Position numbers and translations under genes: made by a program. Positions 27,429 to 59,184 of a DNA stretch of 64,000 bases are shown piece after piece. Each line of letters begins with the position of its first letter. Positions within the stretch are counted from its first letter, which is position 1. Location: the NCBI GenBank assembly GCA_938743325.2, contig OW568887.1:434001-498000 (forward strand), in the 5' to 3' direction. Origin of the DNA: Pycnococcus provasolii. Lineage: Eukaryota > Chlorophyta > Pseudoscourfieldiophyceae > Pseudoscourfieldiales > Pycnococcaceae. Below the pieces are notes generated by a model. It was given only the letters and a program-made list of their open reading frames with translations. It searched no databases and was not told where the DNA came from.

Positions 27429-28116
27429 ATGCCCGTGCCGGGTGCCCGCGGTCGCCTCCATGTCCACGCGCATGGATGTGGATGTCCTCATGTCTGGCTC
27501 TTTCTCTTTCTTTCTCTCGGTTTTCTCTGTGGGCTAGGAGGTGTGGTGAGGGTGGTGGTGGCACAGTCTCTGCCAGGCTCTGATAGGCTTGACTCTCTGC
27601 GTTTGTTAGCCCTACAAAACCCAGTATTGTTGTCGTCGTGGCTTGAAAATGGTGCCTTTGACGATATCAATAACGGTACCGCCGTTTCTGCAGGACCGTT
27701 TCTTGCAGGACACCCGTGTCTTGACCCAGTCAACCGGCCGTGGACCGGTATCTCGTGCCAAAACTCAGATGTCACCGCAATCAACCTCGCGTCACTCCAG
27801 CTCGTCGGAAGCATACCGGACGACCTGCCAAGCGCTGCGCCGAAGCTCGTGTCGCTCATACTCTCAAACAACAACCTCACCGGATACGTGCCCGACAACC
27901 TCAACCAGCTGCCTAACCTCAGATACGTCTACCTCGACAGAAATAAACTCGAAGGACCGCTGTCTGAAACTTTCCTCGAGCAAGTCGCGCCGAAACTAGA
28001 CGCGTTCGCCATATGGGGAAACGAACGCGTGTGTGGGGCCAACTTCAACGTCTCCTACTTCAAGAAGCTGACGTCTCTGTCCACGTCAAACACAGAACTG
28101 GGACAGCCGTGCCCGT

Positions 28117-28147
<31 letters not shown>

Positions 28148-29844
28148 GCCGCCGCGGCCACCGCCACCACCGCCGCCGTCGCCGCCGCCGCTGCCGTCGC
28201 CACCACCGCCACTTCCCCCCGCGCTGCCGTCGCCGCCGCCGCCGCCGTTTTATTCGGACGCGCGCCTCAGGAATGTCACGCTCGCCGTGCTAGCGAACGA
28301 CCTCGAGCCGCCATACACGACGCGGTACTACGAGTGCGTGCTCGATCGGCCGATTGACAACAGCCCGCTCCAGAACGACACGGCGTACGAGTGCGTCGTT
28401 CCATTCGAGGTGGAACAGCTGCAGGCGGATATCGTCGCGGTAAGGCCGTGGGCGAACATCGTCGTGGACGTCGATCACGGCGAGCCCACGCTGCCTCCAC
28501 CGCCTTCACCTCCACCACCACCCTCACCGCCGCCGTCGCCACCGCCACCTCCACCATCGCCACCGCCTCCTCCACCTCCACCCACACCTCCGCCACCGCC
28601 TCTGCCACCGCCTCTGCCACCTTCACCACCACCTCCGCCGCCGTCTCCCCCACCGCCTCCTCCACCTCCACCCTCACCTCCGCCGCCTCCGCCGTATCCA
28701 CCGCCGCCACCACCACCTCCACCGCCATCGCCTCGGCCACCCCCCTCTCCGACGCCACCACCACCGACGCCTCCGCCACCGGCGCCGCCTCCACCGCCTT
28801 CCCCACCGCCGTCTCCTCCTCCTTCTCCTCCGCCGCCGTCACCGCCGCCGCCCTCGCCCGAGCCACCGCCGTCTCCACCACCTCCCAGTCCGCCGCCACC
28901 TCCGGCACCTCCCTTTCCTCCTCCACCGCCGTTGCCGCCGCCGTCTCCGCCGCCGCCTCCACCGCCGTCTCCACCGCCGCCTCCTTTCCCACCACCATTA
29001 CCGCCCAGCCCACCGCCAATTCCGCTGATTGTCCAGGCGGCGTCTCCCCCGCCCCTGCCGCCCCCGCCGTCACCGGTGTCGAATGGTACGAATGCCACGA
29101 CGGAAGTTGTAGCTGCACCACCTGCCGGAGACGACGGAAACGCCACCGTGCAGTCGGTAACGACGACCACCACCGCCACCGCGACGACGGTTCCGGAAGC
29201 ATCAGCAACGACGACGCAAGCTCCAGCACGACGACGACATCTCACGTTCCACAACTCCAGCTCGCCGTCGGGTGAGATAAAGCGCAACATCAACGGCCTT
29301 GTCGTGGGCAGGACGCATGTCACGATCACGATCACGTCGGAGGACAAGACTGTCGCGCGAAAGTACGAGGTGTCAATCGTCCGCACAGCCAGGCCGTGCG
29401 ACACGCAGCTCAGTGTCCTGAAAATGCAAGCGGCGATCGAAGACAATGGCATATACTGGTTCACCAACATAGCGCCGGTGTACAGCATCGTCCCTAGATT
29501 CGATGCGCCCGTATACGACGGATACACCACGAATGTTCCGTACTACGTAGGGCGAGTTGACGTATTTGCGTCCACCGTTCGTCGGAATGGTGACGTTGCG
29601 GTCACCGTGGGCGTGCTTCCCCCTGGTGCGGATCCCGGCAACACGAGCGTGCCGCTGCTCAATGCCACCACAACGGACAAGAGCACGACGGACCCAGTTT
29701 TTCGCAGCGTCCCTCTCTTTCACGGCGAGACGTTCCTCGTGGCGCGCACGCACGCGCAGGACAACTTCACCATCGTGCAGTACACGGTGAAGGTAAATCG
29801 CATGCTGCCCCCACCGCCGCCGAGTCCGCCGCCGCCGAGTCCTC

Positions 29845-29875
<31 letters not shown>

Positions 29876-31292
29876 TCCTCCACCACCCGCATTCACCACC
29901 ATGGTGGTGAAAGGACCTCCGCGCGCGCACAACACGACCGAGAGCTTCTTTGAATTCTACACGCCGCTCTGCGAGGAATGGACGTGCAGGCACGAGTGCA
30001 AGGTGGACGTCGCGTTGTGGAAAAACTGTTCTGAGGTTGGCGGCGCCACCGAATCGATGTCTCTGTCGCTGAATCCGGGGAACCACACGCTGCTTGTGCG
30101 GGCGCGAGGACACCCCTCCGAGACTACGATTTCACCAGCGGTGACAGAGTACCGCTGGTTGATTGACGTGTCCAACCCCGCGGTGAGCATTCGCCAGACG
30201 ATGCCCTACGAGGGTGGCCTGACGTACTCCAATGCGCGAGGATCTCGGCCGTTCACCGAGGTGAGGTTAGTGCTCGAATTCTCGCAGCCCGTCGTCGGCA
30301 TGAACGTGAGTCGCGTCACGATTACAGGTGGCGAGATGCTTACGTACTCCGAGGTGGCCAAGGGAACCATGTTCAACATCGGTGTCTCCCCTGGCGCGAA
30401 CAGCCGCGGGGAACTCATCTGCACGACGTCGTTGAATTTGATTGGCGTCGCGGATGCGTCTGGCAACGCGCCTGTGCTAGGCGAACAAAGGTGGACGTTC
30501 AACTCTACAACGTATCCGATCACCGCATTCAACGAGTACATGCCAGCGAAGACGGCGGTGAGCGGTGTTTCGCTGTCTCTTGCTCGTGATCTCATAAGTC
30601 CTCGCGTGGCACTGGCGCGCGTTCCGCAGGCGTACTACGGCATTGCGTACGCGCCGAATCCCGTCTACTTCGAGCTTGCCTTCTCGGAGACGATCAGGGC
30701 GGTTGTCAAGAAGCAGGTGCAGGTGAGCGGTGGCGAGCTTCAAAGTGTGAGGATGCCCAACACGACGCACGTGACACTGGTCGTGAATCCCACGATCCCA
30801 AAAGGTGCGGGTGCAAGGTCGCAATGCAACACGGACATTGCGCGAAGAGCGGTATCCTTTATGGATCCAGGATTCAACACCGACGTGGAGGGTACGATAT
30901 CACGCGACTTTGGCGATACACCTAACCTGCGCCCTCGGTTCGTGGACATCATTCCTTCGAATGGCAATCTTCCTTGCGTGTCGATCGTCGTGACGAATGT
31001 TCGCGACGCCGCAGGCAATGCCCTCGTGCCGCCGGAGGTGGGCATGCTTGTGAGGTACGATCCGGAGGTGAAAGAAAAACGTGAGCTGAAGATCTGGCAC
31101 ATCGTGTTGATCGTCCTGGCATCCGCGGCGGGTGCCATGGCATGTTTCCTTGCAGTGCTTGCGAGACGACGATCGACTAGTTTAAGAAGCTGGGAGCTCG
31201 CCATTGCACCTCCTGTGAAGGTGTTTGCGTTGGATCCGGCGGATTTGAAGGAAAGAGAGACGCGCGAAATTATTTTGAAGGCAGAAGTGTAA
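27429..31292 (+). CDS. Chimeric LRR / poly-proline (HRGP-type) / beta-sandwich membrane protein
   Basis: A 1287-aa single-exon protein. A signal-like hydrophobic segment lies at residues 23-45 (WLFLFLSLGFLCGLGG). Next is an LRR ectodomain (about 50-220) with a plant-LRR N-cap PWTGISC and repeats of L-x-x-L-x-L-x-x-N-x-L-x-G type (LVSLILSNNNLTGYVPDNL). The first poly-Pro block is 28110-28250. A short globular spacer follows, then a long (S)PPPP block at 28490-29030. Then come a cadherin-like beta-sandwich domain (TSEDKTVARKYEVSIVRTA) and a third SPPPP block (29809-29888). The C-terminal part has Ig-like/Big-type domains (YEGGLTYSN...FTEVRLVLEFSQPV). One membrane span near the C-terminus (IWHIVLIVLASAAGAMACFL) leaves a tail of about 50 residues in the cytosol. 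SPPPP blocks are usually hydroxyproline-glycosylated in green algal walls (pherophorin/extensin-like). Likely a wall-plasma membrane linker or surface receptor. Confidence 0.8.
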
Positions 31293-31515
31293 ATCTGAGA
31301 AAAACATTCATTCGTTCATTCATTCGTTCATTGAGTTAAACTTTGTGACAAACCAAGAAAAAAGCAAAAAAAACAAAAAAAAACTCCTGCAACAACAAAA
31401 CGTGAGTGGGTCAGTCACCGTAGCGTGTGAAGAAAAAACTGTGGCGGCGACACATGTGCGTACGGCGGACAGTACCCGTTCTTATTGAGTTCTTAGATGA
31501 TGGCTGAGTCACTCA
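31293..31515. other. 3' flank shared with the silk-like array
   Basis: Contains a (CATTCGTT)n-like repeat, then a degenerate copy of the array spacer (AGTTAAACTTTGTGACAA, A-rich, CTGCAACAAC). It marks the left end of the tandem array just after the wall glycoprotein stop codon. Confidence 0.7.
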
Positions 31516-32208
31516 TCAGGGAGCGACCGCAGCGGGAGCCTCAGCCAGCTCAGCCTCCGGCGCGAGACTGCGGAAACCGTACGGTCCACCAAATCCACCG
31601 CCGCCGCCGCCCGCAGCAGCTGCGGCGGCAGCAGCGGCAGCAGCACCTCCGCCACCGCCGCCCCAGCCGCCGTATGGTCCACCAAATCCACCGCCGCCGC
31701 CGCCGGCAGCAGCTGCGGCGGCAGCAGCGGCAGCACCTCCGCCACCGCCATAGCCGCCGTATGGGTACATCGGGGGGTACCCGTACGGCATCGGCGGGTA
31801 GAATGGCGGGCGCCATCCTCCTCCTCCTCCGCCGCCACCAGCAGCAGAAGCACTAGCAGAAGCGGAGGCAGCTCCACCACCACCACCTCCTCCTCCTCCG
31901 TAAGGGTATGGGTACGGCATTGGGTATGGCGGGTAAGGGTATGGCGGGCGCCATCCTCCTCCACCGCCTCCTCCTCCTCCGGCAGCTGCGGCGGCGGCGG
32001 CAGCCGCGGCTCCTCCTCCACCACCGCCTCCTCCATAGCCAAACCTCAAGGTGACGTTATTATCATCACCTTGTCCATCATCCATGGTTTGGATGTTCAC
32101 AGGAGGGACAGGAGGCGTTTCTTCCTGCGCATGCGTGACCGCCACCATGGAACTGCAAGCCACCAAGAAGGCGACGAAGAGAGCGGCGCGCGTAGTCATT
32201 GACATCAT
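31516..32208 (-). CDS. Silk-like secreted poly-Ala/poly-Gly protein, copy 1 (type A)
   Basis: 230 aa. The signal peptide is MMSMTTRAALFVAFLVACSS with cleavage probable after THA, giving mature QEETPPVPPV. Gly8 is followed by Ala10, Gly9, then the W-R-P-P-Y-P block (PYPYPPYPMPYPYPYGG), then an alternating Ala/Ser block (AASASASASAA), Gly8, WRPPFYPPMPYGYPPM, a second Ala10 and an Ala11 each flanked by Gly runs, ending FGGPYGFRSLAPEAELAEAP. Poly-Ala beside Gly-rich and Pro/Tyr blocks is the layout of silk fibroins and spidroins and some wall Gly-rich proteins. Ala codons are mixed (GCA, GCC, GCT, GCG), so this is not simple triplet slippage. A short acidic segment with DDNNVTLRFG replaces the linker of other copies. 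Likely an extracellular fibre or wall protein; no homology to animal silks is claimed. Confidence 0.8.
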   Translation of the reverse strand: MMSMTTRAALFVAFLVACSSMVAVTHAQEETPPVPPVNIQTMDDGQGDDNNVTLRFGYGGGGGGGGAAAAAAAAAAGGGGGGGGGWRPPYPYPPYPMPYPYPYGGGGGGGGGAASASASASAAGGGGGGGGWRPPFYPPMPYGYPPMYPYGGYGGGGGAAAAAAAAAAGGGGGGFGGPYGGWGGGGGGAAAAAAAAAAAGGGGGGFGGPYGFRSLAPEAELAEAPAAVAP

Positions 32209-32414
32209 CAGGTATTATCGTAGTAGTGCTACTTTCTTTTCACAAATCACACACAAGCGAAGAATGAAAGGGGCTGTGAAGGTGACAGCGGCGGGGCCGG
32301 AGTTCACAGGACCGGAATCCTAGGACGTGTTTTTAGGGAAGATAGGAGGGAGGGAAGTGGGAATTCGAGGGGCAGGTGGGAGGGAGGGAAGCCGCGTGTG
32401 AAGAAATCGTGATG

Positions 32415-32753
32415 TCATGTTCCTGAAAACTGGTTACAACCGACCGAATATTGTGAAAGATTGCCCAAATCTTGATTTTTTTCCTCAGAAAATGTAATCT
32501 TGAATCCTGAAATCTTGATTGCGCAAGATTCAGGTGGCGCGAGCGCGCCACCCTCGTTGTCGTAAAAGAGCACGTCAGTCGCGCGCACCTCCACCGAGTC
32601 CGTCGCGTACACCGCACCGCCGTGCCCGCCGGCGCGGTTGCCGCGAAACTTGCAGTCCGTCATGACGACGACGACGCTGCCGCCCAGCGCGAGCGCGCCA
32701 CCCTTGCGTAGATGAGGGAAGTTGGAATGGGAGGGGCAGGAGGAGGCATTCAA
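32415..32753 (-). pseudogene. ATG-less right-handed beta-helix (Pmp-type) fragment, spacer 1
   Basis: 112 open codons beginning with TTG; the first in-frame ATG is inside the domain. It shows Pmp-type repeats: GGALALGG, F-x-x-N in DCKFRGNRAGGHGGAVYA, and FYDNEGGALAPP. These G-G-A-[ILV] and F-x-x-N repeats build chlamydial Pmp and algal PbH1 beta-helices, but here only about three rungs remain. It has no signal peptide, no start and no domain end, so it is most likely a captured gene piece copied with each silk-like unit. Confidence 0.6.
32506..32552. repeat. Double hairpin in spacer 1
   Basis: Hairpin 1 (32506-32534): CCTGAAATCTTG pairs with CAAGATTCAGG with one bulged A. Hairpin 2 (32533-32552): GGTGGCGCG and CGCGCCACC form a perfect 9-bp stem around AG. 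They overlap by two bases inside the beta-helix fragment. Confidence 0.9.
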
Positions 32754-32887
32754 TTCATTCAGTTAAACTTTGTGACAACCAAAACAAAAAAGCTGCTGCA
32801 ACAACGAAACGTGGGTCACATGTATGTATGTGGCACGGCGTGCAGTACCCGTTCTTCTTGAGTTCTTGTTGTTGGCTGAGTCACTCA

Positions 32888-33628
32888 TCAGGGAGCGACC
32901 GCAGCCAGCTCAGCCTCAGCCAGCTGGAGCTGGAGCTGGAGCTGGAGCCAGCCTGGAGCCTCAGCCAGCTCAGCCTCCGGCGCGAGACTGCGGAAACCGT
33001 ACGGTCCACCAAATCCACCGCCGCCGCCGCCCCAGCCGCCGTATGGTGGGTACATCGGGGGGTACATCATAGGGTACCCGTACGGGCGGTACGGCATCGG
33101 CGGGTAGAATGGCGGGCGCCATCCTCCTCCTCCTCCTCCTCCGCCACCAGCAGCAGCTGCGGCGGCAGCAGCGGCAGCTCCACCACCACCACCTCCTCCT
33201 CCGCCACCAGCAGCAGCTGCGGCGGCAGCAGCGGCAGCTCCACCACCACCACCTCCTCCTCCTCCGTAAGGGTATGGTCCAGGGTACGGCATTGGGTATG
33301 GCGGGTAAGGGTATGGCGGGCGCCATCCTCCTCCCCATCCTCCTCCTCCTCCTCCGGCAGCTGCGGCGGCAGCAGCAGCCGCGGCTCCACCGCCTCCAAA
33401 GTTCCTCACTTCCTCACCATCACCTCCAGAGACTTTCGTCGCGGACGCGCCAGCCATTCCGGGTCCCGTCATGGTCGTCGCCGTTCCTCCTTGTCCATCA
33501 TCCATGGTTTGGATGTTCACAGGAGGGACAGGAGGCGTTTCTTCCTGCGCATGCGTGACCGCCACCATGGAACTGCAAGCCACCAAGAAGGCGACGAAGA
33601 GAGCGGCGCGCGTAGTCATTGACATCAT
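32888..33628 (-). CDS. Silk-like secreted poly-Ala/poly-Gly protein, copy 2 (type B)
   Basis: 246 aa. Signal peptide as in copy 1, then the full linker PPVPPVNIQTMDDGQGGTAT...GASATKVSGGDGEEVRNF. Three Ala10 blocks follow, each followed by a Gly-rich run. The PYPYPPYPMPYPGPYPYGG block separates the first and second, and WRPPFYPPMPYRPYGYPMM follows the third. The C-terminus differs from all other copies: a tandem CTGGAG-type expansion (about 32918-32955 on plus) turns the usual AEAP end into LQLQLQLQLAEAELAAVAP. This shows coding-end expansion by slippage or unequal exchange without loss of frame. Confidence 0.8.
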   Translation of the reverse strand: MMSMTTRAALFVAFLVACSSMVAVTHAQEETPPVPPVNIQTMDDGQGGTATTMTGPGMAGASATKVSGGDGEEVRNFGGGGAAAAAAAAAAGGGGGGWGGGWRPPYPYPPYPMPYPGPYPYGGGGGGGGGAAAAAAAAAAGGGGGGGGGGAAAAAAAAAAGGGGGGGGGWRPPFYPPMPYRPYGYPMMYPPMYPPYGGWGGGGGGFGGPYGFRSLAPEAELAEAPGWLQLQLQLQLAEAELAAVAP

Positions 33629-33833
33629 CAGGTATTATCGTAGTAGTGCTACTTTCTTTCACAAATCACACACAAGCGAAGAATGAAAGGGGCTGTGAAG
33701 GTGACAGCGGCGGGGCCGGAGTTCACAGGACCGGAATCCTAGGACGTGTTTTTAGGGAAGATAGGAGGGAGGGAAGTGGGAATTCGAGGGGCAGGTGGGA
33801 GGGAGGGAAGCCGCGTGTGAAGAAACCGTGATG

Positions 33834-34172
33834 TCATGTTCCTGAAAACTGGTTACAACCGACCGAATATTGTGAAAGATTGCCCAAATCTTGATTTTTT
33901 TCCTCAGAAAATGTAATCTTGAATCCTGAAATCTTGATTGCGCAAGATTCAGGTGGCGCGAGCGCGCCACCCTCGTTGTCGTAAAAGAGCACGTCAGTCG
34001 CGCGCACCTCCACCGAGTCCGTCGCGTACACCGCACCGCCATGCCCGCCGGCGCGGTTGCCGCGAAACTTGCAGTCCGTCATGACGACGACGACGCTGCC
34101 GCCCAGCGCGAGCGCGCCACCCTTGCGTAGATGAGGGAAGTTGGAATGGGAGGGGCAGGAGGAGGCATTCAA
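33834..34172 (-). pseudogene. ATG-less beta-helix (Pmp-type) fragment, spacer 2
   Basis: Same 112-codon TTG-opened frame as spacer 1, with only scattered base changes. It lies between silk-like copies 2 and 3. Confidence 0.6.
33925..33971. repeat. Double hairpin in spacer 2
   Basis: Same two overlapping hairpins as spacer 1, with the bulged A in the first stem. Confidence 0.9.
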
Positions 34173-34306
34173 TTCATTCAGTTAAACTTTGTGACAACCA
34201 AAACAAAAAAGCTGCTGCAACAACGAAACGTGGGTCACATGTATGTATGTGGCACGGCGGACAGTACCCGTTCTTCTTGAGTTCTTGTTGTTGGCTGAGT
34301 CACTCA

Positions 34307-35095
34307 TCAGGGAGCAACCGCAGCGGGAGCCTCAGCCAGCTCAGCCTCCGGCGCGAGACTGCGGAAACCGTACGGTCCACCAAATCCACCGCCGCCGCCG
34401 CCCGCAGCAGCTGCGGCGGCAGCAGCGGCAGCAGCACCTCCGCCACCGCCGCCCCAGCCGCCGTATGGTCCACCAAATCCACCGCCGCCGCCGCCGGCAG
34501 CAGCTGCGGCGGCAGCAGCGGCAGCTCCTCCGCCACCGCCATAGCCGCCGTATGGGTACATCGGGGGGTACCCGTACGGCATCGGCGGTTGGAGGTACGG
34601 TCGCATTCCCCATCCTCCTCCTCCGCCGCCACCAGCAGCAGAAGCACTAGCAGAAGCGGCGGCAGCTCCACCACCACCACCTCCTCCTCCTCCGTAAGGG
34701 TATGGGTACGGCATTGGGTATGGCGGGTAAGGGTATGGCGGGCGCCATCCTCCTCCCCATCCTCCTCCTCCTCCTCCGGCAGCTGCGGCGGCAGCAGCAG
34801 CCGCGGCTCCTCCTCCACCACCGCCTCCTCCAAACCTCAAGGTGTTATCATCACCTCCAGAGACTTTCGTCGCGGACGCGCCAGCCATTCCGGTCATTCC
34901 CGTCGTGACCGGGAATGACCGGGGGGTCATTCCCGTCATGGTCGTCGCCGTTCCTCCTTGTCCATCATCCATGGTTTGGATGTTCACAGGAGGGACAGGA
35001 GGCGTTTCTTCCTGCGCATGCGTGACCGCCACCATGGAACTGCAAGCCACCAAGAAGGCGACGAAGAGAGCGGCGCGCGTAGTCATTGGCATCAT
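34307..35095 (-). CDS. Silk-like secreted poly-Ala/poly-Gly protein, copy 3 (type A)
   Basis: 262 aa, the longest copy. Signal peptide MMPMTTRAALFVAFL. The linker carries an extra TGMTPRSFPVTTGM segment encoded by a perfect 11-bp-stem hairpin at 34892-34920. It contains Ala10, an Ala/Ser block (AAAASASASAA), Ala10 and Ala11, with Gly runs between. A local W-G-M-R-P-Y-L-Q-P-P replaces the W-R-P-P-F-Y-P-P of copy 1. The C-terminus is as in copy 1. Confidence 0.8.
   Translation of the reverse strand: MMPMTTRAALFVAFLVACSSMVAVTHAQEETPPVPPVNIQTMDDGQGGTATTMTGMTPRSFPVTTGMTGMAGASATKVSGGDDNTLRFGGGGGGGGAAAAAAAAAAGGGGGGWGGGWRPPYPYPPYPMPYPYPYGGGGGGGGGAAAASASASAAGGGGGGGWGMRPYLQPPMPYGYPPMYPYGGYGGGGGAAAAAAAAAAGGGGGGFGGPYGGWGGGGGGAAAAAAAAAAAGGGGGGFGGPYGFRSLAPEAELAEAPAAVAP
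34892..34920. repeat. Perfect hairpin inside silk-like copy 3
   Basis: GGTCATTCCCG (34892-34902), 7-nt loop TCGTGAC, CGGGAATGACC (34910-34920). A further direct GGTCATTCCCG follows at about 34925. It adds residues to the linker in frame and is absent from the other copies. Confidence 0.9.
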
Positions 35096-35300
35096 CAGGT
35101 ATTATCGTAGTAGTGCTACTTTTTTTCACAAATCACACACAAGCGAAGAATGAAAGGGGCTGTGAAGGTGACAGCGGCGGGGCCGGAGTTCACAGGACCG
35201 GAATCCTAGGACGTGTTTTTAGGGAAGATAGGAGGGAGGGAAGTGGGAATTCGAGGGGCAGGTGGGAGGGAGGGAAGCCGCGTGTGAAGAAACCGTGATG

Positions 35301-35639
35301 TCATGTTCCTGAAAACTGGTTACAACCGACCGAATATTGTGAAAGATTGCCCAAATCTTGATTTTTTTCCTCAGAAAATGTAATCTTGAATCCTGAAATC
35401 TTGATTGCGCAAGATTCAGGTGGCGCGAGCGCGCCACCCTCGTTGTCGTAAAAGAGCACGTCAGTCGCGCGCACCTCCACCGAGTCCGTCGCGTACACCG
35501 CACCGCCGTGCCCGCCGGCGCGGTTGCCGCGAAACTTGCAGTCCGTCATGACGACGACGACGCTGCCGCCCAGCGCGAGCGCGCCACCCTTGCGTAGATG
35601 AGGGAAGTTGGAATGGGAGGGGCAGGAGGAGGCATTCAA
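35301..35639 (-). pseudogene. ATG-less beta-helix (Pmp-type) fragment, spacer 3
   Basis: Same 112-codon frame as spacers 1 and 2; between copies 3 and 4. Confidence 0.6.
35392..35438. repeat. Double hairpin in spacer 3
   Basis: Same pair of overlapping hairpins, with the bulged A in the first stem. Confidence 0.9.
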
Positions 35640-35773
35640 TTCATTCAGTTAAACTTTGTGACAACCAAAACAAAAAAGCTGCTGCAACAACGAAACGTGG
35701 GTCACATGTATGTATGTGGTACGGCGTGCAGTACCCGTTCTTCTTGAGTTCTTGTTGATGGCTGAGTCACTCA

Positions 35774-36364
35774 TCAGGGAGCGACCGCAGCGGGAGCCTC
35801 AGCCAGCTCAGCCTCCGGCGCGAGACTGCGGAAACCGTACGGTCCACCAAATCCACCGCCGCCGCCGCCCCAGCCGCCGTATGGTGGGTACATCGGGGGG
35901 TACATCATAGGGTACCCGTACGGGCGGTACGGCATCGGCGGGTAGAATGGCGGGCGCCATCCTCCTCCTCCTCCTCCTCCGCCACCAGCAGCAGCTGCGG
36001 CGGCAGCAGCGGCAGCTCCACCACCACCACCTCCTCCTCCGCCACCAGCAGCAGCTGCGGCGGCAGCAGCGGCAGCTCCACCACCACCACCTCCTCCTCC
36101 TCCGTAAGGGTATGGTCCAGGGTACGGCATTGGGTATGGCGGGTAAGGGTATGGCGGGCGCCATCCTCCTCCCCATCCTCCTCCTCCTCCTCCGGCAGCT
36201 GCGGCGGCAGCAGCAGCCGCGGCTCCACCGCCTCCAAAGTTCCTCACTTCCTCACCATCACCTCCAGAGAGCGTTTCTTCCTGCGCATGCGTGACCGCCA
36301 CCATGGAACTGCAAGCCACCAAGAAGGCGACGAAGAGAGCGGCGCGCGTAGTCATTGACATCAT
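35774..36364 (-). CDS. Silk-like secreted poly-Ala/poly-Gly protein, copy 4 (type B, short linker)
   Basis: 196 aa, the shortest copy. The linker is cut in frame: after QEET it jumps straight to LSGGDGEEVRNF, losing the PPVPPVNIQTMDDGQG to GASATKV stretch kept in copies 2 and 5. The three Ala10 blocks and the Pro/Tyr segments are intact. The in-frame loss suggests the linker length is free to vary while the block region is kept. Confidence 0.8.
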   Translation of the reverse strand: MMSMTTRAALFVAFLVACSSMVAVTHAQEETLSGGDGEEVRNFGGGGAAAAAAAAAAGGGGGGWGGGWRPPYPYPPYPMPYPGPYPYGGGGGGGGGAAAAAAAAAAGGGGGGGGGGAAAAAAAAAAGGGGGGGGGWRPPFYPPMPYRPYGYPMMYPPMYPPYGGWGGGGGGFGGPYGFRSLAPEAELAEAPAAVAP

Positions 36365-36487
36365 CAGGTATTATCGTAGTAGTGCTACTTTCTTTCACAA
36401 ATCACACACAAGCGAAGAATGAAAGGGGCTGTGAAGGTGACAGCGGCGGGGCCGGAGTTCACAGGACCGGAATCCTAGGACGTGTTT

Positions 36488-36910
36488 TTAGGGAAGATAG
36501 GAGGGAGGGAAGTGGGAATTCGAGGGGCAGGTGGGAGGGAGGGAAGCCGCGTGTGAAGAAACCGTGATGTCATGTTCCTGAAAACTGGTTACAACCGACC
36601 GAATATTGTGAAAGATTGCCCAAATCTTGATTTTTTTCCTCAGAAAATGTAATCTTGAATCCTGAATCTTGATTGCGCAAGATTCAGGTGGCGCGAGCGC
36701 GCCACCCTCGTTGTCGTAAAAGAGCACGTCAGTCGCGCGCACCTCCACCACCGAGTCCGTCGCGTACACCGCACCGCCATGCCCGCCGGCGCGGTTGCCG
36801 CGAAACTTGCAGTCCGTCATGACGACGACGACGCTGCCGCCCAGCGCGAGCGCGCCACCCTTGCGTAGATGAGGGAAGTTGGAATGGGAGGGGCAGGAGG
36901 AGGCATTCAA
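36488..36910 (-). pseudogene. ATG-less beta-helix (Pmp-type) fragment, spacer 4
   Basis: Same fragment as in spacers 1-3 with two length differences: one extra codon (SVVEVRATD) and a one-base loss after CAIKI that changes the downstream frame. The second change also makes the first hairpin stem perfect. Such drift supports a non-coding fragment. Confidence 0.6.
36661..36706. repeat. Double hairpin in spacer 4, both stems perfect
   Basis: CCTGAATCTTG (36661-36671), loop ATTGCG, CAAGATTCAGG (36678-36688): a perfect 11-bp stem, followed by the perfect 9-bp stem ending at 36706. Confidence 0.9.
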
Positions 36911-37044
36911 TTCATTCAGTTAAACTTTGTGACAACCAAAACAAAAAAGCTGCTGCAACAACGAAACGTGGGTCACATGTATGTATGTGGTATGGCGTGC
37001 AGTACCCGTTCTTCTTGAGTTCTTGTTGATGGCTGAGTCACTCA

Positions 37045-37725
37045 TCAGGGAGCGACCGCAGCGGGAGCCTCAGCCAGCTCAGCCTCCGGCGCGAGACTGC
37101 GGAAACCGTACGGTCCACCAAATCCACCGCCGCCGCCGCCCCAGCCGCCGTATGGTGGGTACATCGGGGGGTACATCATAGGGTACCCGTACGGGCGGTA
37201 CGGCATCGGCGGGTAGAATGGCGGGCGCCATCCTCCTCCTCCTCCTCCTCCGCCACCAGCAGCAGCTGCGGCGGCAGCAGCGGCAGCTCCACCACCACCA
37301 CCTCCTCCTCCGCCACCAGCAGCAGCTGCGGCGGCAGCAGCGGCAGCTCCACCACCACCACCTCCTCCTCCTCCGTAAGGGTACGGCATTGGGTATGGCG
37401 GGTAAGGGTATGGCGGGCGCCATCCTCCTCCCCATCCTCCTCCTCCTCCTCCGGCAGCTGCGGCGGCAGCAGCAGCCGCGGCTCCACCGCCTCCAAAGTT
37501 CCTCACTTCCTCACCATCACCTCCAGAGACTTTCGTCGCGGACGCGCCAGCCATTCCGGGTCCCGTCATGGTCGTCGCCGTTCCTCCTTGTCCATCATCC
37601 ATGGTTTGGATGTTCACAGGAGGGACAGGAGGCGTTTCTTCCTGCGCATGCGTGACCGCCACCATGGAACTGCAAGCCACCAAGAAGGCGACGAAGAGAG
37701 CGGCGCGCGTAGTCATTGACATCAT
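37045..37725 (-). CDS. Silk-like secreted poly-Ala/poly-Gly protein, copy 5 (type B)
   Basis: 226 aa, like copy 2 but without the C-terminal LQLQ expansion and with a slightly shorter Pro/Tyr block (PYPYPPYPMPYPYGG). Signal peptide, full linker and three Ala10 blocks are intact. It is the first gene of the array in the direction of transcription. The upstream flank matches the other units for about 70 bp and then becomes unique, so this is the array's right end. Confidence 0.8.
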   Translation of the reverse strand: MMSMTTRAALFVAFLVACSSMVAVTHAQEETPPVPPVNIQTMDDGQGGTATTMTGPGMAGASATKVSGGDGEEVRNFGGGGAAAAAAAAAAGGGGGGWGGGWRPPYPYPPYPMPYPYGGGGGGGGGAAAAAAAAAAGGGGGGGGGGAAAAAAAAAAGGGGGGGGGWRPPFYPPMPYRPYGYPMMYPPMYPPYGGWGGGGGGFGGPYGFRSLAPEAELAEAPAAVAP

Positions 37726-37989
37726 CAGGTATTATCGTAGTAGTGCTACTTTTTTTTCACAAATCACACACAAGCGAAGAATGAAAGGGGCTGTTGTGCC
37801 TAGAAAAGGGAAGACGGGGCGGGGCCGGAGTTGAGGGCAGGTGGGAGGGAGGGAAGCCAATTTCAGAGTGAAGTTGTGAAATCGGATGGCACGTTTTTGA
37901 GGATACCTCGATCACCCAGACAGACACAGACACAAGCCCCAATCAATTCCACCTGGCAGCTAGCTGGAATCTGCTCATTCATTCTTCAG

Positions 37990-39024
37990 ATGACGACAAG
38001 GATGATGAATGCGTCGAAGAAGAAGAAGACGACAGCTTGCTTTCTTCTGATCGTGCTTACGTTCCTCCTTCTTGTCCCTCCTGCTCGCGGGTCTGCGCAC
38101 GAAGGTAATGGTGGTGGTGTGACTGGTGTCGACGATTATGGAGTTGACTTGTACGACTACTACTCGATGACGGATTTGGATATGGAAGAGGGAGAAACTC
38201 TTCAGCCCTTCACGTCAACGACGACGTCGCCGACGATGAACGACGAGTTCGGTGAGGATGACGTCAACAACAGCAACATCGTCACACAAGAAGAAATAAC
38301 GAGGAATGGCGCCGATTTCTTCGGAGGAGGAGACACAACAATGCCGTCCTATCCTTCGTACCCTGATCCTTACGCCTCGCCATTCTACTACGGTCCCGCT
38401 GCTGGAGGAGCGGTAAGTGGTAATCCTCCTCTCGCTCCTCCTCCTGCAAATGCCGTCGGCGGTCGCGGTCGCCGCGGTCGTAAAAAGCCGCGTGTTCAAA
38501 AGCCGCGTCGTCGAGGACGACGTGGGAAGAGGACGACGACACGACGTGGGCGACGAGGCAGGCGTCCGAGTTATGGTTATGCCATGCCTCCTCCTCCTCC
38601 GCCCTACTACTATGGTGGTGGTTATCTTGCCGCTGGGGGGCAGCACTACTACCACTACCCGCATCCGGCGTATTACTCCTACTACTACCCGCCTGTGGTG
38701 TATCCGACGACGAATTACTACTATCCGCCGTCGTACCCGACGTCGTACTACGATGGTGGTGGTGGTGACAACTACCTTTATCCCGGCGCGGGCGGGCGTA
38801 CGTTTGGAGGGGGCGGCGGCGGTTGCGCGACGATGAATTGCGCGTGCGCGGGACCCATGGAGGTGGACTCGAGCGGGTGCCCCGTCTGCCCTCCTCCTCC
38901 GTGCGCTCCTCTTCCAGGCTTTGGAATCCGCAATGCGTGGTTTGCCCAATTGCCACCCATGCGTGGCTCCGCGGAGGCGCCTGCGCCGGACGACGACGAC
39001 TTCTTAAAGGAAGGAGACGTTTGA
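37990..39024 (+). CDS. Secreted Tyr/Pro/Gly-rich, Arg-rich matrix-like protein
   Basis: 344 aa from ATG 37990 (MTTRMMNASKKKK). Signal peptide near residues 14-38 (FLLIVLTFLLLVPPARGSA). Then an acidic Asp/Tyr-rich region, and a strongly basic block of GRRGRR/RRGRRGKR repeats (residues about 155-195). A Tyr/Pro-rich region (YHYPHPAYYSYYYPPVVYP) with about 30 Tyr follows, then a Cys cluster CATMNCACAGPMEVDSSGCPVC like an antistasin-type motif. Tyr-rich secreted proteins are often cross-linked by peroxidases, and the basic block could bind acidic polysaccharide; both are inference. It lies head-to-head with the silk-like array, 264 bp between start codons, so may share its promoter region. Confidence 0.7.
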   Translation: MTTRMMNASKKKKTTACFLLIVLTFLLLVPPARGSAHEGNGGGVTGVDDYGVDLYDYYSMTDLDMEEGETLQPFTSTTTSPTMNDEFGEDDVNNSNIVTQEEITRNGADFFGGGDTTMPSYPSYPDPYASPFYYGPAAGGAVSGNPPLAPPPANAVGGRGRRGRKKPRVQKPRRRGRRGKRTTTRRGRRGRRPSYGYAMPPPPPPYYYGGGYLAAGGQHYYHYPHPAYYSYYYPPVVYPTTNYYYPPSYPTSYYDGGGGDNYLYPGAGGRTFGGGGGGCATMNCACAGPMEVDSSGCPVCPPPPCAPLPGFGIRNAWFAQLPPMRGSAEAPAPDDDDFLKEGDV

Positions 39025-45370: not shown

Positions 45371-45403
<33 letters not shown>

Positions 45404-46033
45404 ATGCGAAAATCAGAAAACAACGAGGGAAAAAGACCGGCATTCCCCCAAAGCCTGATAATTTTCCCTTCATAACGGCGATCCCCGTTATAAATTAATG
45501 GCGCCGCGGCCGTCAGCGTGCGTGCGTTCTATCAACGCACTCTATGGGCTATTGAAGAGGACACATTGGGCAGCCACCTGCGAGAAACCCCGTCTTTATC
45601 CGACCTGAAACGGACATGTATTCGTTGATCTCCGTATTATGCCGTATAACGGGAAATTTGGTCGGGGGAAAGGGAGTTTTGATCAGATCCCGACCAAATT
45701 TATGGTTATACGGCCATTATGCAAAACGTCGATAACTTCTCCGTTTCAGGTCAAAACAAGAATTGGTTTGTGACTGACAGTAGCTCTATGTGTGCTGTTC
45801 AATAGCCCATAGAGTGCGTTGATAGAACGCACGCACGCTGACGGCCGCGGCGCCATTAATTTATAACGGGGATCGCCGTTATGAAGGGAAAATTATCAGG
45901 CTTTGGGGGAATGCCGGTCTTTTTCCCTCGTTGTTTTCTGATTTTCACATGGGGGGAAGATGAGTGGGGAATGCGATGGGGAAATAGACCCGCGACCTTA
46001 TTTCCAAAATCGGGCTTCGTCGACAAGGCTTAT
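45282..46033. mobile_element. Fold-back (long inverted-repeat) element, about 750 bp
   Basis: The arms are near reverse complements: ATAAGCCTTGTCGAC at the left end and GTCGACAAGGCTTAT at the right, with the long shared block from GAAAATCAGAAAACAACGAGG through GGCGCCGCGGCCGTCAGCG to CTATGGGCTATTGAA. The inner part is less similar but still palindromic, for example GACCTGAAACGGA with TCCGTTTCAGGTC and AAATTTGGTCGGG with CCCGACCAAATTT, down to a short loop near 45675. The left arm carries a 32-C run (45372-45403). No ORF codes for a transposase, so it would be non-autonomous (fold-back or long-TIR MITE). No clear target-site duplication. Confidence 0.75.
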
Positions 46034-49218: not shown

Positions 49219-52014
49219 ATGGGAAACTGCATATCGGGTAACGCCAATGGCAACATTAATGCCGCTGCTAGTTCTGCGAGTTCAGGAGGGGGCAGTTCAG
49301 GTTCATTGCCGGCCGCCACACTGAAGTCGCCGCATAACACGGCCGGCTTGTCCTCCTCAGGAGCGGCCAAGCCGGCCTCGTCTTCAAATGGCGCGCTCGA
49401 GCTGCGAGGGGACCCGCTCGCCGCGGCGCCAACGCGCAACTCCGTCATCAGGGCGCCGGCGCTCAGCCAGGGGGAACTGCGCAAGCTTAAGGCGAAGCGC
49501 CTTGCCGTCGCGGCAGAAGCGCTCGCGGAGGGGACGCAAATCGCAAAGGTGGAAAAAAGTCCCGCGCAGTTCCAGCTCATCGCCAAGGCGGTGAGCGGCA
49601 ACCCGCTCTTCACCAGCCTGCAGAACGAGGCACGCACCGTCATCATCATGTCCATGTTCCCGCAGGAGGTGGGTCCCGGAACGGAAATCATTCAGCAGGG
49701 CGACGCCGAGGCGGAGACGTTCTACGTGCTCGAGTCAGGATCAGCGGACGTGTTCATCAACGGGGAGAAGGTGCACACGTACGGACCGGGAACCTGCTTC
49801 GGCGAGCTCGCGCTGCTGTACAACTCGCCGCGCGTCGCGACGGTGCAGGCAACTGCGCCGTGCAAGATGTGGGTCATGGAGCGCAAGGCGTACTCGGTCG
49901 TGCGAACGAAGATGGCGAAGCAGCTCGACAAGGACCGCCACGAGGCGATTGACGGCTGCCAAATTTTCGCCGCACTATCCGACGACCGCAAGCAGGCGGT
50001 CACCGACGCGCTCGAGCCCGTCACGTTCGAGACTGGCGAGTACGTGTTCCACAAGGGCGACGTGGGCGACCGCTTCTACATCATCCAGTCGGGAGAAGTG
50101 TCCGTCGTCGACGACGGCAAGGAGCTCACAAGGCTCGGCCAAGGCCAGTGGTTCGGAGAGAGGGCGCTCATGGGCGACGACACGCGCGCCGCCTCCGCAT
50201 TCGCGAAGAGCGACGGCGTGCGGCTCTTCTACCTCAATCGGCAGGCGTTCCAGGATCTCATCGGTCCCATCCAGGACGTCTGGCGCTGGGAGAGCCTTCG
50301 CAGCCTGCCGCTGCTCGCGTCCGTGTCCAACGACCAGATCAACGAGCTGCTCAACATGCTCGAGGGCGCGGAGGTTGGGAGGGACAAGTACATCTTCCAG
50401 GCTGGAGAGGAGGGCGACGCGCTGTACGTCGTGGAGTCCGGCGAGCTCGTCGTCGTGGACCCAGACAAGAACATCACGCTGGCGACACTCAAGAAGGGGT
50501 CATGTTTCGGCGAGCTCGCGTTGCTGAAGAACGACGTGCGCTCCGCATCGGTCGTCACCATCTCCGACGTGAAGCTCCTTCGCATCACACGTGCATCGTT
50601 CGAGACGGCTCTCGGCGGCACGCTCGAGGCGCTCACGCACGCGTGGAAGGTGCAGCTCTTGCAGAGCGTGTCGATTCTGCAGAATGTTAATGCGCAGAAG
50701 CTCGATGAGGTTGCTTCGCTGCTCGACTCGAAGAGCTACGGCGCGGGAACGAACATCGTCACCAAGGGTGAGGCGGGCGACACGTTCTACATCGTGCAGA
50801 GCGGAATCCTCTCCGTGCTTGGCGATGACGGCAGCGAGGAGGCGACTCTCACGTCTGGGCAGTTCTTCGGCGAGCTTGCTCTGCTCAACAACGACGTGCG
50901 CAGAAAGACGGTGCAGGCCAAAATGGCTGCGCAGCTGCTCTGCCTGCCGCGCTCGGCGTTCGAGCGCGTCGTCGGCTCCCTGCAGGCAATGCTCGACGAG
51001 CATGCTAAGCTGTACGGCGGCGGCACTGGCCCTGGCAAGCTGGCAATTTCCAGTCCCAAGGATCTGAAGACGCTTGCGGTGCTTGGCATCGGCGCATTTG
51101 GCAAGGTGCTCCTCTGCAAGTCGGGCGCGCCCGGTGCGCCTCCTGTCATGGCGCTCAAGATCTTGAAGAAGGCGCAGATATTGCAGACGGGACTGCAGAA
51201 GCACGTCATGCGCGAGCGCGACGTTATGATGCAGTGCGACACTCCCTTCATGGTGAATCTCCTCCAAACGTTCAAGGACAAGGAACACCTGTACATGCTA
51301 CTTGAGGCGGTTATGGGCGGAGAGCTGTTCACGTACCTCAGTGGAAAGAATGGTGTGCCAGAGAAGCAGAGCCGCTTCTACACGGCTTGCGTCGTGCTTG
51401 CCTTCGAGTACCTGAATACACGCAACTACATCTACCGAGACCTCAAGCCTGAGAACTTGCTCATTGATACCGACGGTTACGTGAAGGTGGCGGACTTTGG
51501 ATTCGCCAAGAAGCTCGATCGTGGAAAGACATACACAATGTGTGGCACTCCGGACTACCTTGCACCGGAGCTCGTGCAGCAGAGTGGTCACGGCAAGGCG
51601 GTGGACTGGTGGGCGCTCGGAGTGCTGATCTTTGAGATGACCGCAGGATTCCCACCGTTCGCTGGATCAGATCAGATTGAGCAAATGTCCGCAATCCTCG
51701 CGGTCAGGTACACCGTCCCGCAGCAGTTCTCTAAGGAAGTTCGCGACATCATCAAGAAGCTGCTTGTCGCGAACGCCGCGAAGCGCCTTGGCACGCTGAA
51801 GGGTGGTCCGAGTGACGTGAAGAAGCATCCGTGGTTCAAGGATCTCGACTGGGAGGCTCTGAAATCGAAGGGTCTGCGAGCTCCTTATGTTCCCAAACTC
51901 AAGTCCATCGAGGACACGAGCTGCTTCGACGATTACGACATCAACGAGGAGCACCCTGGAGAATCATTTAAGCCAGGCCGCAAGCTTAGCAACGGCGTTT
52001 TCGATAGCTTTTAA
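49219..52014 (+). CDS. PKG: cGMP-dependent protein kinase with four cyclic-nucleotide sites
   Basis: 931 aa. The N-terminus MGNCISGN fits N-myristoylation at Gly2 and palmitoylation at Cys4, so membrane association is likely. Four cNMP-binding domains follow (about residues 140-610), each with an intact phosphate-binding cassette: FGELALLYNSPRVAT, FGERALMGDDTRAAS, FGELALLKNDVRSAS and FGELALLNNDVRRKT. Each keeps the phosphate-binding Arg and a following Ser/Thr as in cGMP-selective sites. The AGC kinase domain (about 615-880) has GIGAFGKV, ALKILKK, YRDLKPEN, DFGFAKK, the activation loop MCGTPDYLAPE, then the AGC tail ending SFKPGRKLSNGVFDSF. Four sites in one chain are typical of algal, ciliate and apicomplexan PKGs rather than animal ones, which have two. 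Confidence 0.93.
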   Translation: MGNCISGNANGNINAAASSASSGGGSSGSLPAATLKSPHNTAGLSSSGAAKPASSSNGALELRGDPLAAAPTRNSVIRAPALSQGELRKLKAKRLAVAAEALAEGTQIAKVEKSPAQFQLIAKAVSGNPLFTSLQNEARTVIIMSMFPQEVGPGTEIIQQGDAEAETFYVLESGSADVFINGEKVHTYGPGTCFGELALLYNSPRVATVQATAPCKMWVMERKAYSVVRTKMAKQLDKDRHEAIDGCQIFAALSDDRKQAVTDALEPVTFETGEYVFHKGDVGDRFYIIQSGEVSVVDDGKELTRLGQGQWFGERALMGDDTRAASAFAKSDGVRLFYLNRQAFQDLIGPIQDVWRWESLRSLPLLASVSNDQINELLNMLEGAEVGRDKYIFQAGEEGDALYVVESGELVVVDPDKNITLATLKKGSCFGELALLKNDVRSASVVTISDVKLLRITRASFETALGGTLEALTHAWKVQLLQSVSILQNVNAQKLDEVASLLDSKSYGAGTNIVTKGEAGDTFYIVQSGILSVLGDDGSEEATLTSGQFFGELALLNNDVRRKTVQAKMAAQLLCLPRSAFERVVGSLQAMLDEHAKLYGGGTGPGKLAISSPKDLKTLAVLGIGAFGKVLLCKSGAPGAPPVMALKILKKAQILQTGLQKHVMRERDVMMQCDTPFMVNLLQTFKDKEHLYMLLEAVMGGELFTYLSGKNGVPEKQSRFYTACVVLAFEYLNTRNYIYRDLKPENLLIDTDGYVKVADFGFAKKLDRGKTYTMCGTPDYLAPELVQQSGHGKAVDWWALGVLIFEMTAGFPPFAGSDQIEQMSAILAVRYTVPQQFSKEVRDIIKKLLVANAAKRLGTLKGGPSDVKKHPWFKDLDWEALKSKGLRAPYVPKLKSIEDTSCFDDYDINEEHPGESFKPGRKLSNGVFDSF

Positions 52015-57217: not shown

Positions 57218-57645
57218 CCTGAATGGCCTTCCTTCGCGCCCCCCCCCCCCCCCCAAAAAAAAATCCCCCCGCCCCGATTTTCATTGAAGGGGTATCCCCT
57301 GCTTGTCTTGCTGAACCGTTGTTTTCTACAGTACAGTAATAATAGGGGGCCCATCCCTGGCTCAGGCAGGGAACTTCCTTCGACCCGGTCGTCCCTGGCG
57401 ACGAGACTCGGCGAAGGGAATTCACTGATCAAACCCCGAAAACCCCAGAACAGAAAAAAACCTCCCCGGGGAGCCTTTAGCCAAGGGTTTTTCCCTCTAT
57501 GTATATTGTCAACAACGAAACATTTCCTCTTGAAACGGCCCCACGCACGCACCTGCCTCAAGCACCCCTCAGCTCGAATTCAATTCTCCATTCTTCCTCC
57601 GAGATTGCAGAACAACAACAACACTCGTCATTCTGCTGTAATTCA
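57218..57645. other. Divergent promoter region with C16/A9 tract
   Basis: Lies between the amidohydrolase (minus) and the Ala/Glu-repeat gene (plus). A 16-C homopolymer (57239-57254) is followed by nine A. An open frame runs into the next gene from 57499 but its early part is low complexity; the likely start is ATG 57646. Confidence 0.55.
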
Positions 57646-59184
57646 ATGTCTGCGCCAATGGAGAGGAAGGTAGTGGAAGATGAGCTGCACGAAGACTTTC
57701 GCGACGACTTCGCGGTGGATGCTGCAAAGGCAGCGGCGGATATAGATACGAACGGCGGTGGCGGTGCACAGCAGCAGCAAATACAACAGCCAATCAAGCC
57801 CTCAAACATCCCGATCTTTCAACCTGTTCTGCCGCATACCACGGCGTGGACGCGTGCGGGACAGCCCGACGAAATGAAAGTGCCGCACGCAGTTGGCGGA
57901 GTTGACGAGTGCACGCTACCTGGTCACGCGCTCGAACAGCTGAAGCCACATGAGGCGAAGGCGGAAGAGGAGGTGGCTGCCGAAGCGAAGAAGGCGGAGG
58001 AAGCCGAGGCGGCGCGTATCGCGGCGGAACAGGCGGCGGCTGCCGAGGCGGAGCGTATCGCGGCGGAACAGGCGGCGGCTGCTGAGGCTGAGCGTATCGC
58101 GGCGGAACAGGCGGCGGCTGCTGAGGCGGCGCGTATCGAGGCTGAGCGTATCGCGGCGGAACAGGCGGCGGCTGCCGAGGCGGAGCGTATCGCGGCGGAA
58201 CAGGCGGCGGCTGCCGAGGCGACGCGTATCGAGACTGAGCGTATCGCGGCGGAACAGGCGGCGGCTGCCGAGGCGGAGCGTATCGCGGCGGAACAGGCGG
58301 CGGCTGCCGAAGCGGAGCGTATCGCGGCGGAACAGGCGGCGGCTGCCGAAGCGGCGCGTATCGCGGCGGAACAGGCGGCGGCTGCCGAGGCGGAGCGTAT
58401 CGCGGCGGAACAGGCGGCGGCTGCTGAGGCGGAGCGTATCGCGGCGGAACAGGCGGCGGCTGCCGAGGCGGCGCGTATCGAGGCTGAGCGTATCGCGGCG
58501 GAACAAGCGGCGGCTGCCGAGGCGGAGCGTATCGCGGCGGAACAGGCGGCGGCTGCCGAGGCGGCGCGTATCGAGGCTGAGCGTATCGCGGCGGAACAGG
58601 CGGCGGCTGCCGAGGCGGAGCGTATCGCGGCGGAACAGGCGGCGGCTGCCGAGGCGGCGCGTATCGAGGCTGAGCGTATCGCGGCGGAACAGGCGGCGGC
58701 TGCCGAGGCGGAGCGTATCGCGGCGAAACAGGCGGCGGCTGCCGAGGCTGAGCGTATCGCGGCGGAGCAGGCGGCGGCTGCTGAGGCGGCGCGTATCGAG
58801 GCTGAGCGTATCGCGGCGGAACAGGCGGCGGCTGCCGAGGCGGCGCGTATCGCGGCGGAACAGGCGGCGGCTGCCGAAGCGAAGAAGAAGGCGGAGGACG
58901 ATAAAAAAGCCGACGCGGCAGTAGTTGTCACGCCAGCAGCCGCAGGTACTACTGAAGAGCCGGTGGAAGAAGAGGAGCTGCCAGTCGCCGGCGATTGGCC
59001 GTCTTCTCCAAAGACAGCTCCGGCTGCAGCTGCAGCCGCAGCTGCACTAATGGTTGATGACGCCAAGGAACAAAAGAAGAAGGCGGATCGGGGATCGACT
59101 GGCACACGCCAGAAGCGTAAGCGTGAGCCATCTGATCCTGAAACGATGCGCGTAACGCGATCACGCGCACGCAAAAGTACGTGA
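57646..59184 (+). CDS. Ala/Glu-repeat helical protein with basic C-terminus
   Basis: 512 aa from ATG 57646 ([14 protein letters not shown]). Residues about 124-413 are 20 copies of a 13-residue unit [13 protein letters not shown], with six interspersed RIEAE/RIETE pentads. This amounts to a single long charged helix or coiled coil, TolA-like in composition but not evidently related. The N-terminus is acidic; the linker has poly-Gln and [13 protein letters not shown]. The C-terminus ends [10 protein letters not shown]...[11 protein letters not shown], a probable bipartite nuclear signal. It could be a nuclear structural or chromatin-associated protein; no family assigned. Confidence 0.65.
58015..58884 (+). 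repeat. Coding minisatellite, 39-bp unit (20 copies plus six 15-bp inserts)
   Basis: 290 codons exactly: 20 x 13 + 6 x 5. Units are nearly identical at DNA level (for example GCGGCGGAACAGGCGGCGGCTGCCGAGGCGGAGCGTATC with few changes), so the array was recently expanded or homogenised. Confidence 0.9.

Follow-up and report, generated by a model that had tools for sequence, protein, structure and literature searches.

In a 64,000-nucleotide stretch of the genome of the green alga Pycnococcus provasolii (contig OW568887.1, positions 434,001 to 498,000; hereafter the window), a tandem array of five minus-strand genes at positions 31516-37725 probably encodes small secreted block copolymers destined for the cell wall or extracellular matrix, which would be specific to the lineage and would resemble silk and shell-matrix proteins by convergence. 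The five open reading frames (ORFs) lie head to tail, encode 196-262 amino acids (aa) and contain no internal stop codon in any copy; in the direction of transcription their order is S5, S4, S3, S2, S1. A sequence-only reading had proposed five adjacent genes here, and the ORF ends match its limits exactly, with all five frames open. The genes are as follows.

S1, 31516..32208, minus strand: type alpha, 230 aa, with a signal-peptide-like N-terminus, three pure Ala blocks (10, 10 and 11 residues), one Ala/Ser block and the C-terminus FRSLAPEAELAEAPAAVAP.
S2, 32888..33628, minus strand: type beta, 246 aa, with three Ala10 blocks and a 48-nt in-frame insertion near the C-terminus that carries an AGCTGG hexamer repeat (LQLQLQLQL).
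S3, 34307..35095, minus strand: type alpha, 262 aa, the longest copy, with a longer N-terminal linker, three pure Ala blocks and one Ala/Ser block.
S4, 35774..36364, minus strand: type beta, 196 aa, with an N-terminal linker that is 102 nt shorter, in frame, than in S2 and S5.
S5, 37045..37725, minus strand: type beta, 226 aa, the first copy in the direction of transcription.

The N-terminus, MM(S/P)MTTRAALFVAFLVACSSMVAVTHAQEET, is near-identical and signal-peptide-like in 5/5 copies. All five also share the C-terminal peptide SLAPEAELAEAP as well as FRSLAPEAELAEAP with a terminal AAVAP, and the linker peptide PPVPPVNIQTMDDGQ is found in S1, S2, S3 and S5. Between the ends lie a linker, Ala10/Ala11 blocks flanked by Gly runs of 4-10 residues, and segments such as GWRPPYPYPPYPMPYPYPYG; the arrangement that had been anticipated, of Ala10/Ala11 or Ala/Ser blocks with Gly runs and Pro/Tyr segments, was thus confirmed in the ORF translations. 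The array holds 15 pure Ala runs of 10 or 11 residues, and an Ala/Ser-alternating block occurs only in S1 and S3, once in each. Type alpha (S1 and S3) is marked by this alternating block together with additional FGGPYGGW modules, and type beta (S2, S4 and S5) by pure Ala10 blocks, three per copy. Pairwise, S2, S4 and S5 differ at 2 codons only, and the differences between alpha and beta copies vary with the block alignment chosen. The mature proteins consist of 29-35% Gly, 20-22% Ala, 12-15% Pro and 6-8% Tyr, with 3-5 YXY motifs per copy.

The block layout was compared with chance expectation and with the rule for silk-like structural proteins (SLSPs) of McDougall et al. 2016, given in the excerpted text of PMC4944945 as a signal peptide, no membrane span and at least 25% Gly per 80 aa. 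An Ala8-Gly5 pattern in codon form matched 16 times in the window and never in 100 dinucleotide shuffles of it. Fifteen of the matches fall within the array; the sixteenth (13195) is out of frame and corresponds to a CAG run in a kinase gene. The SLSP rule was applied in a crude form, with hydropathy criteria in place of SignalP and TMHMM, and in this form it selected exactly 5 of the 122 ATG-initiated ORFs of at least 100 aa in the window, namely the array genes, which supports the silk-like block layout that had been claimed. Six of the 122 ORFs reach 25% Gly in 80 aa, five of them being the array genes; the sixth, at 28475-29488, lies on the strand opposite a proline-rich gene, has no signal-peptide-like start and scores as a membrane span. 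In the array, 5/5 copies passed the signal-peptide hydropathy test (mean 2.85 over AALFVAFLVAC), in agreement with the signal peptide first proposed, and a putative cleavage site, THA|Q, was placed by eye. Beyond the signal peptide the highest 19-aa mean hydropathy is 0.93-1.04 in all five copies, which is below membrane values, and the Gly fraction in the best 80-aa window is 0.44-0.48. An AlphaFold 2 (AF2) model of S3 from the five-sequence alignment shows a helix at residues 4-25, the signal peptide, and disorder beyond it (mean predicted local distance difference test score, pLDDT, 42.9). With low confidence, this lack of modelled order past the signal peptide may count against a structural role; disorder is expected for such proteins, yet it is not diagnostic.

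The array is likely to be coding, mainly because the start, linker and C-terminus remain in a single frame. The annotated frame is open in 5/5 copies, and the other two sense frames of each copy contain 4-8 stops. A whole-codon score was highest in the annotated frame in every copy (0.18-0.23, with none of the other five frames above 0.08), also when the portion before the first Gly4 was scored alone, and it lies within the range of 14 host genes (0.15-0.40). The G+C content at third positions of non-Ala/Gly codons is 0.68-0.76 in the array versus 0.72 for the same codons in these 14 genes. Indels between close copies are multiples of 3 in 7/7 cases (12, 48 and 102 nt among S2, S4 and S5; 96, 6, 3 and 3 nt between S1 and S3), compared with 1/3 of the spacer indels. 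Several results weigh on the other side. The indel contrast is weak as proof of selection: several of the in-frame indels sit in trinucleotide or hexamer repeats, which are prone to change by multiples of 3 without selection, and a frame-blind alignment of alpha and beta copies also contains gaps of 1, 2, 4 and 46 nt that merely sum to multiples of 3. A synonymous-codon score that excludes Ala and Gly was higher in an antisense frame with 3-4 stops in 5/5 copies, and for S1 and S3 it was higher in another sense frame as well. A separate antisense frame of every copy has one stop only.

These last results bear on a distinctly improbable alternative, that the locus is a young array of simple-repeat DNA that is decaying or was never expressed and owes its open frames to recent copying and GC-rich triplets. 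The synonymous-codon test does not favour the sense frame, the nearly open antisense frame recurs in each copy, and the spacers, at about 99% identity, point to very recent copying or conversion, so that five open copies are not five independent tests. However, indels of 12 to 102 nt leave the signal-peptide-like start, linker and C-terminus in a single frame, alpha and beta copies are all open although many of their blocks differ, and the whole-codon score resembles that of host genes. The spacers and edges of the array are as follows.

I12, 32209..32887, minus strand: internal spacer of 679 bp with 4-5 substitutions versus each other spacer, made up of the 5' flank of S1, a beta-helix/PMP-repeat-like gene fragment and the 3' flank of S2.
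I23, 33629..34306, minus strand: internal spacer with the same make-up as I12.
I34, 35096..35773, minus strand: internal spacer with the same make-up as I12, containing an ORF at 35301-35639.
I45, 36365..37044, minus strand: internal spacer with the same make-up as I12.
Left edge, 31327..31515, minus strand: diverged copy of the 3' flank (62 bp at 89% and 87 bp at 69% identity).
Right edge, 37726..37794, minus strand: proximal 5' flank as in the spacers (69 bp at 97% identity), with a short piece further out.

The four internal spacers are 678-680 bp long and differ pairwise by 3-6 substitutions and 0-3 indels, and the outer edges are more diverged than these. A multi-copy tandem locus, as first suggested, is therefore borne out by five copies with near-identical spacers. 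The non-coding spacers match one another about as closely as the signal peptides do, so likeness between copies is no evidence of selection. The spacers differ by only 3-6 substitutions per approximately 678 bp and the alpha and beta coding blocks differ by whole modules; the array thus displays gain and loss of blocks. Part of another gene may have become caught at the junction of an old duplication, after which unequal exchange or conversion would have amplified and homogenized the unit, with the repeat blocks continuing to change by whole modules. Excerpts of PMC5348893 describe spider MiSp genes in which the ends are alike and the repeats differ. An assembly error is conceivable, although the distinct insertions that the copies carry argue against a simple false duplication. 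The minus-strand ORF at 35301-35639 was compared with PF02415 (Chlam_PMP) for the I34 copy only and fell under the cut-off (E 0.0014; 19.1 versus 20.6 bits); the spacer fragment is bounded by GGALALGG and EGGALAPP motifs.

Codon usage within the repeats was also assessed. The sequence-only reading had seen the mixture of Ala codons as arguing for selection on the protein sequence; the mixture is present, but that interpretation was not upheld. The 15 pure Ala runs comprise just 5 distinct codon strings, and GCC GCC GCA GCT occurs in 15/15, which indicates that the Ala blocks are copies of one ancestral block and not independent evidence. Third positions are A or T in 58% of Ala and 76% of Gly codons of the five copies, versus 34% and 47% in the 14 pooled host genes. 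Excerpts of PMC3522626 and PMC5348893 report that third positions of Ala and Gly codons likewise lean toward A/T in spidroins. Repeat-rich genes of the window at 57499 and 27429 show no such lean for Ala (26% and 24%, respectively). However, the lean is not restricted to the array: a transporter gene at 46204 shows values of 54% for Ala and 71% for Gly, the gene to the right of the array (37990-39024) has 64% for Gly, and among the copies themselves S1 (67% for Gly) falls under the transporter and S3 (71%) is level with it. Since blocks were copied from one another, the number of independent codons is small, and the A/T lean is suggestive only. Folding tests gave no support to weaker mRNA structure as the reason for the lean. 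Compared with host-codon recodings, S5 had a z of 2.4 and S3 of -0.1, with control genes at 2.6 (GT90), 1.3 (CC57) and 0.2 (SufC); compared with shuffles of their own codons, S3 was more folded (z -3.3) and S5 had a z of -0.3. Selection through mRNA structure was therefore dropped, as the results are inconsistent and an ordinary gene scores similarly, and this too detracts from the case for a selected protein.

Among known systems, the animal SLSPs described in the excerpts of PMC4944945 share with the array proteins a signal-peptide-like start, the lack of a membrane-like span, a repetitive and modular structure, and a Gly content that is 44-48% here versus the 25% required; that survey concerned animals, whereas the array comes from a green alga and its role in a biological material is putative. 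The excerpted text of PMC6542584 describes MSI60, Shelk2-like and precollagen D proteins as combining poly-Ala motifs with repetitive Gly domains, and the array proteins, compared by description only, have poly-Ala blocks and Gly-rich repeats in common with the nacre and shell proteins treated there (MSI60, Shelk2-like, Hic74). They differ from those proteins in their small size of only 196-262 aa and in their P/Y/W linkers. This likeness would suit an organic matrix of mineral, scales or theca, akin to the nacre poly-Ala/Gly proteins, or a secreted adhesive, a role that is considered improbable; a long acidic tract was looked for by eye and not seen in the copies.

Spidroins have conserved N- and C-terminal domains and are far longer than the array proteins. 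The proposed comparison with spidroins held for the block layout but not for any spidroin domain, as no such Pfam model matched S1 or S3 (E up to 0.1) or S2, S4 or S5 (E up to 5); PF07172 in S1 was the sole Pfam match of any kind at these thresholds. According to the excerpts of PMC3522626 and PMC5348893, MaSp and MiSp spidroins share with the array Ala blocks beside Gly-rich regions, A/T-leaning Ala and Gly third positions, and duplicated loci with like ends and varying repeats. The array proteins, in contrast, are short and carry Gly in pure runs, not as GGX, and common descent is not implied.

Plants are already known to possess Gly-rich secreted wall proteins (PMC5852109, in excerpt), so proteins of this class have some precedent in the green lineage, and it is the Ala10 blocks that stand out. 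It is conceivable, though unlikely, that the array encodes a plant-type glycine-rich protein (GRP) of the cell wall with unusually long Ala runs, in which the Ala blocks serve as spacers without a silk-like role in assembly. The green-lineage setting, the richness in Gly and the signal-peptide-like start fit this, and the signal peptide, high Gly content and (for the array, predicted) wall role recur in the excerpted account of class I and II GRPs in PMC5852109. S1 matched PF07172 (GRP) with E = 0.014, but at 16.4 bits against a cut-off of 30, and the other four copies had no match. The (GGX)n region of class I is represented by just one or two GGFGGP tracts per copy, with none longer, and in place of the Cys-rich C-terminus of class II the mature part contains no Cys in 5/5 copies. 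All 15 pure Ala runs are 10-11 residues long, which speaks against a spacer role, though copying alone could produce the same uniformity. Extensins carry Ser-(Pro)n repeats and YXY motifs that are oxidatively cross-linked. The array proteins share YXY motifs and Pro-rich stretches with these and other hydroxyproline-rich wall proteins, and the Ser-Pro dipeptide is absent from all five mature copies. By the features tested, the array proteins are not spidroins, extensins, or plant GRPs of class I or II.

Relatives would be expected in eukaryote genomes; searches for them in viral and prokaryote collections agreed with the earlier statement that no such family is known in an alga. A search of IMG/VR with the five-copy alignment returned 47 pattern stretches, of which 0 were confirmed, and one with the right neighbour returned 9 stretches, also with 0 confirmed. 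The Ala8-Gly5 pattern was found in 9 stretches in IMG/VR and 48 in prokaryote genomes, giving 57 loci (58 matches), only one of which had a frame containing at least three Ala and at least three Gly runs; this locus, L004, is an arginine-rich 109-aa frame and was judged by eye to be unrelated. Among solved structures, a threshold of E up to 10 gave 6 matches, the best at 0.016 and none convincing. Among the literature matches listed, no algal Ala-block/Gly-run protein was described, though this does not prove absence.

If the array encodes secreted block copolymers, the signal peptide would direct the proteins out of the cell, the Gly runs and PY stretches would remain flexible, and the Ala blocks of adjacent chains could stack into beta-sheets or helix bundles that act as physical cross-links, with tyrosines and YXY motifs permitting oxidative cross-linking. 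Tandem copies would increase dosage, and recombination would hold the ends and flanks alike while letting block content vary. Other extracellular roles, such as adhesive, mucilage or ice-binding, would also fit the same sequence and so compete with a wall or matrix role. Type I antifreeze proteins contain Ala-rich helices, and on this ground an ice-binding or other Ala-helix protein was considered, which appears extremely improbable: the blocks show no regular Thr spacing by eye, the Gly runs are long, and AF2 gave, at low confidence, no helix beyond the signal peptide. A bolder proposal, which we regard as doubtful, is that a true silk evolved independently in a green alga, in which a recombining multi-copy locus supplies small secreted copolymers of Ala10 and Gly blocks that assemble outside the cell into fibres reinforced by beta-sheets or into a tough layer of the wall; such a silk would provide a protein-based load-bearing material where walls are thought to be polysaccharide, hydroxyproline-rich glycoprotein or mineral. 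Should the block-copolymer reading be correct, the silk layout of an Ala crystal-former beside a Gly spacer would have arisen again, in a green alga, and the array would offer a compact natural module for testing minimum silk length and a candidate protein behind the strength of algal walls.

The genes flanking the array would be consistent with an extracellular-matrix setting. The left neighbour (27429-31292, plus strand) has a signal-peptide-like start, leucine-rich repeats, long Pro-rich tracts, a cadherin-like domain and one C-terminal membrane span, and bears some resemblance to plant LRX proteins. The right neighbour (37990-39024, plus strand), divergent from S5, has a signal-peptide-like start and is Tyr/Pro/Gly-rich, its 24% Gly being just short of the SLSP rule; its middle is Arg/Lys-rich and its C-terminal part contains six Cys. 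An antistasin-like Cys pattern, noted by eye, was set aside, as Pfam gave no match to this protein at E up to 5. The right neighbour and S5 may have a common promoter region.

Elsewhere in the window, an inverted repeat at 45385-45969, with 240-nt arms that are 87% complementary and 105 nt between them, is possibly a small transposon-like element. The window also encodes an EDR1/CTR1-type kinase, which, like the uL2 matches given below, supports an origin in the green lineage, a kinase with four cyclic-nucleotide-binding stretches (49219-52014, plus strand; PKG-like), and a 561-aa protein with a long repeat array of 39/15-nt spacing that is probably a coiled coil (57499-59184, plus strand). 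The seven best matches of the uL2 protein of the window, which we take to be land-plant ribosome entries, rank ahead of those taken to be from animals and yeast once 11he is set aside, an entry whose top rank was due only to a duplicated segment in that chain.

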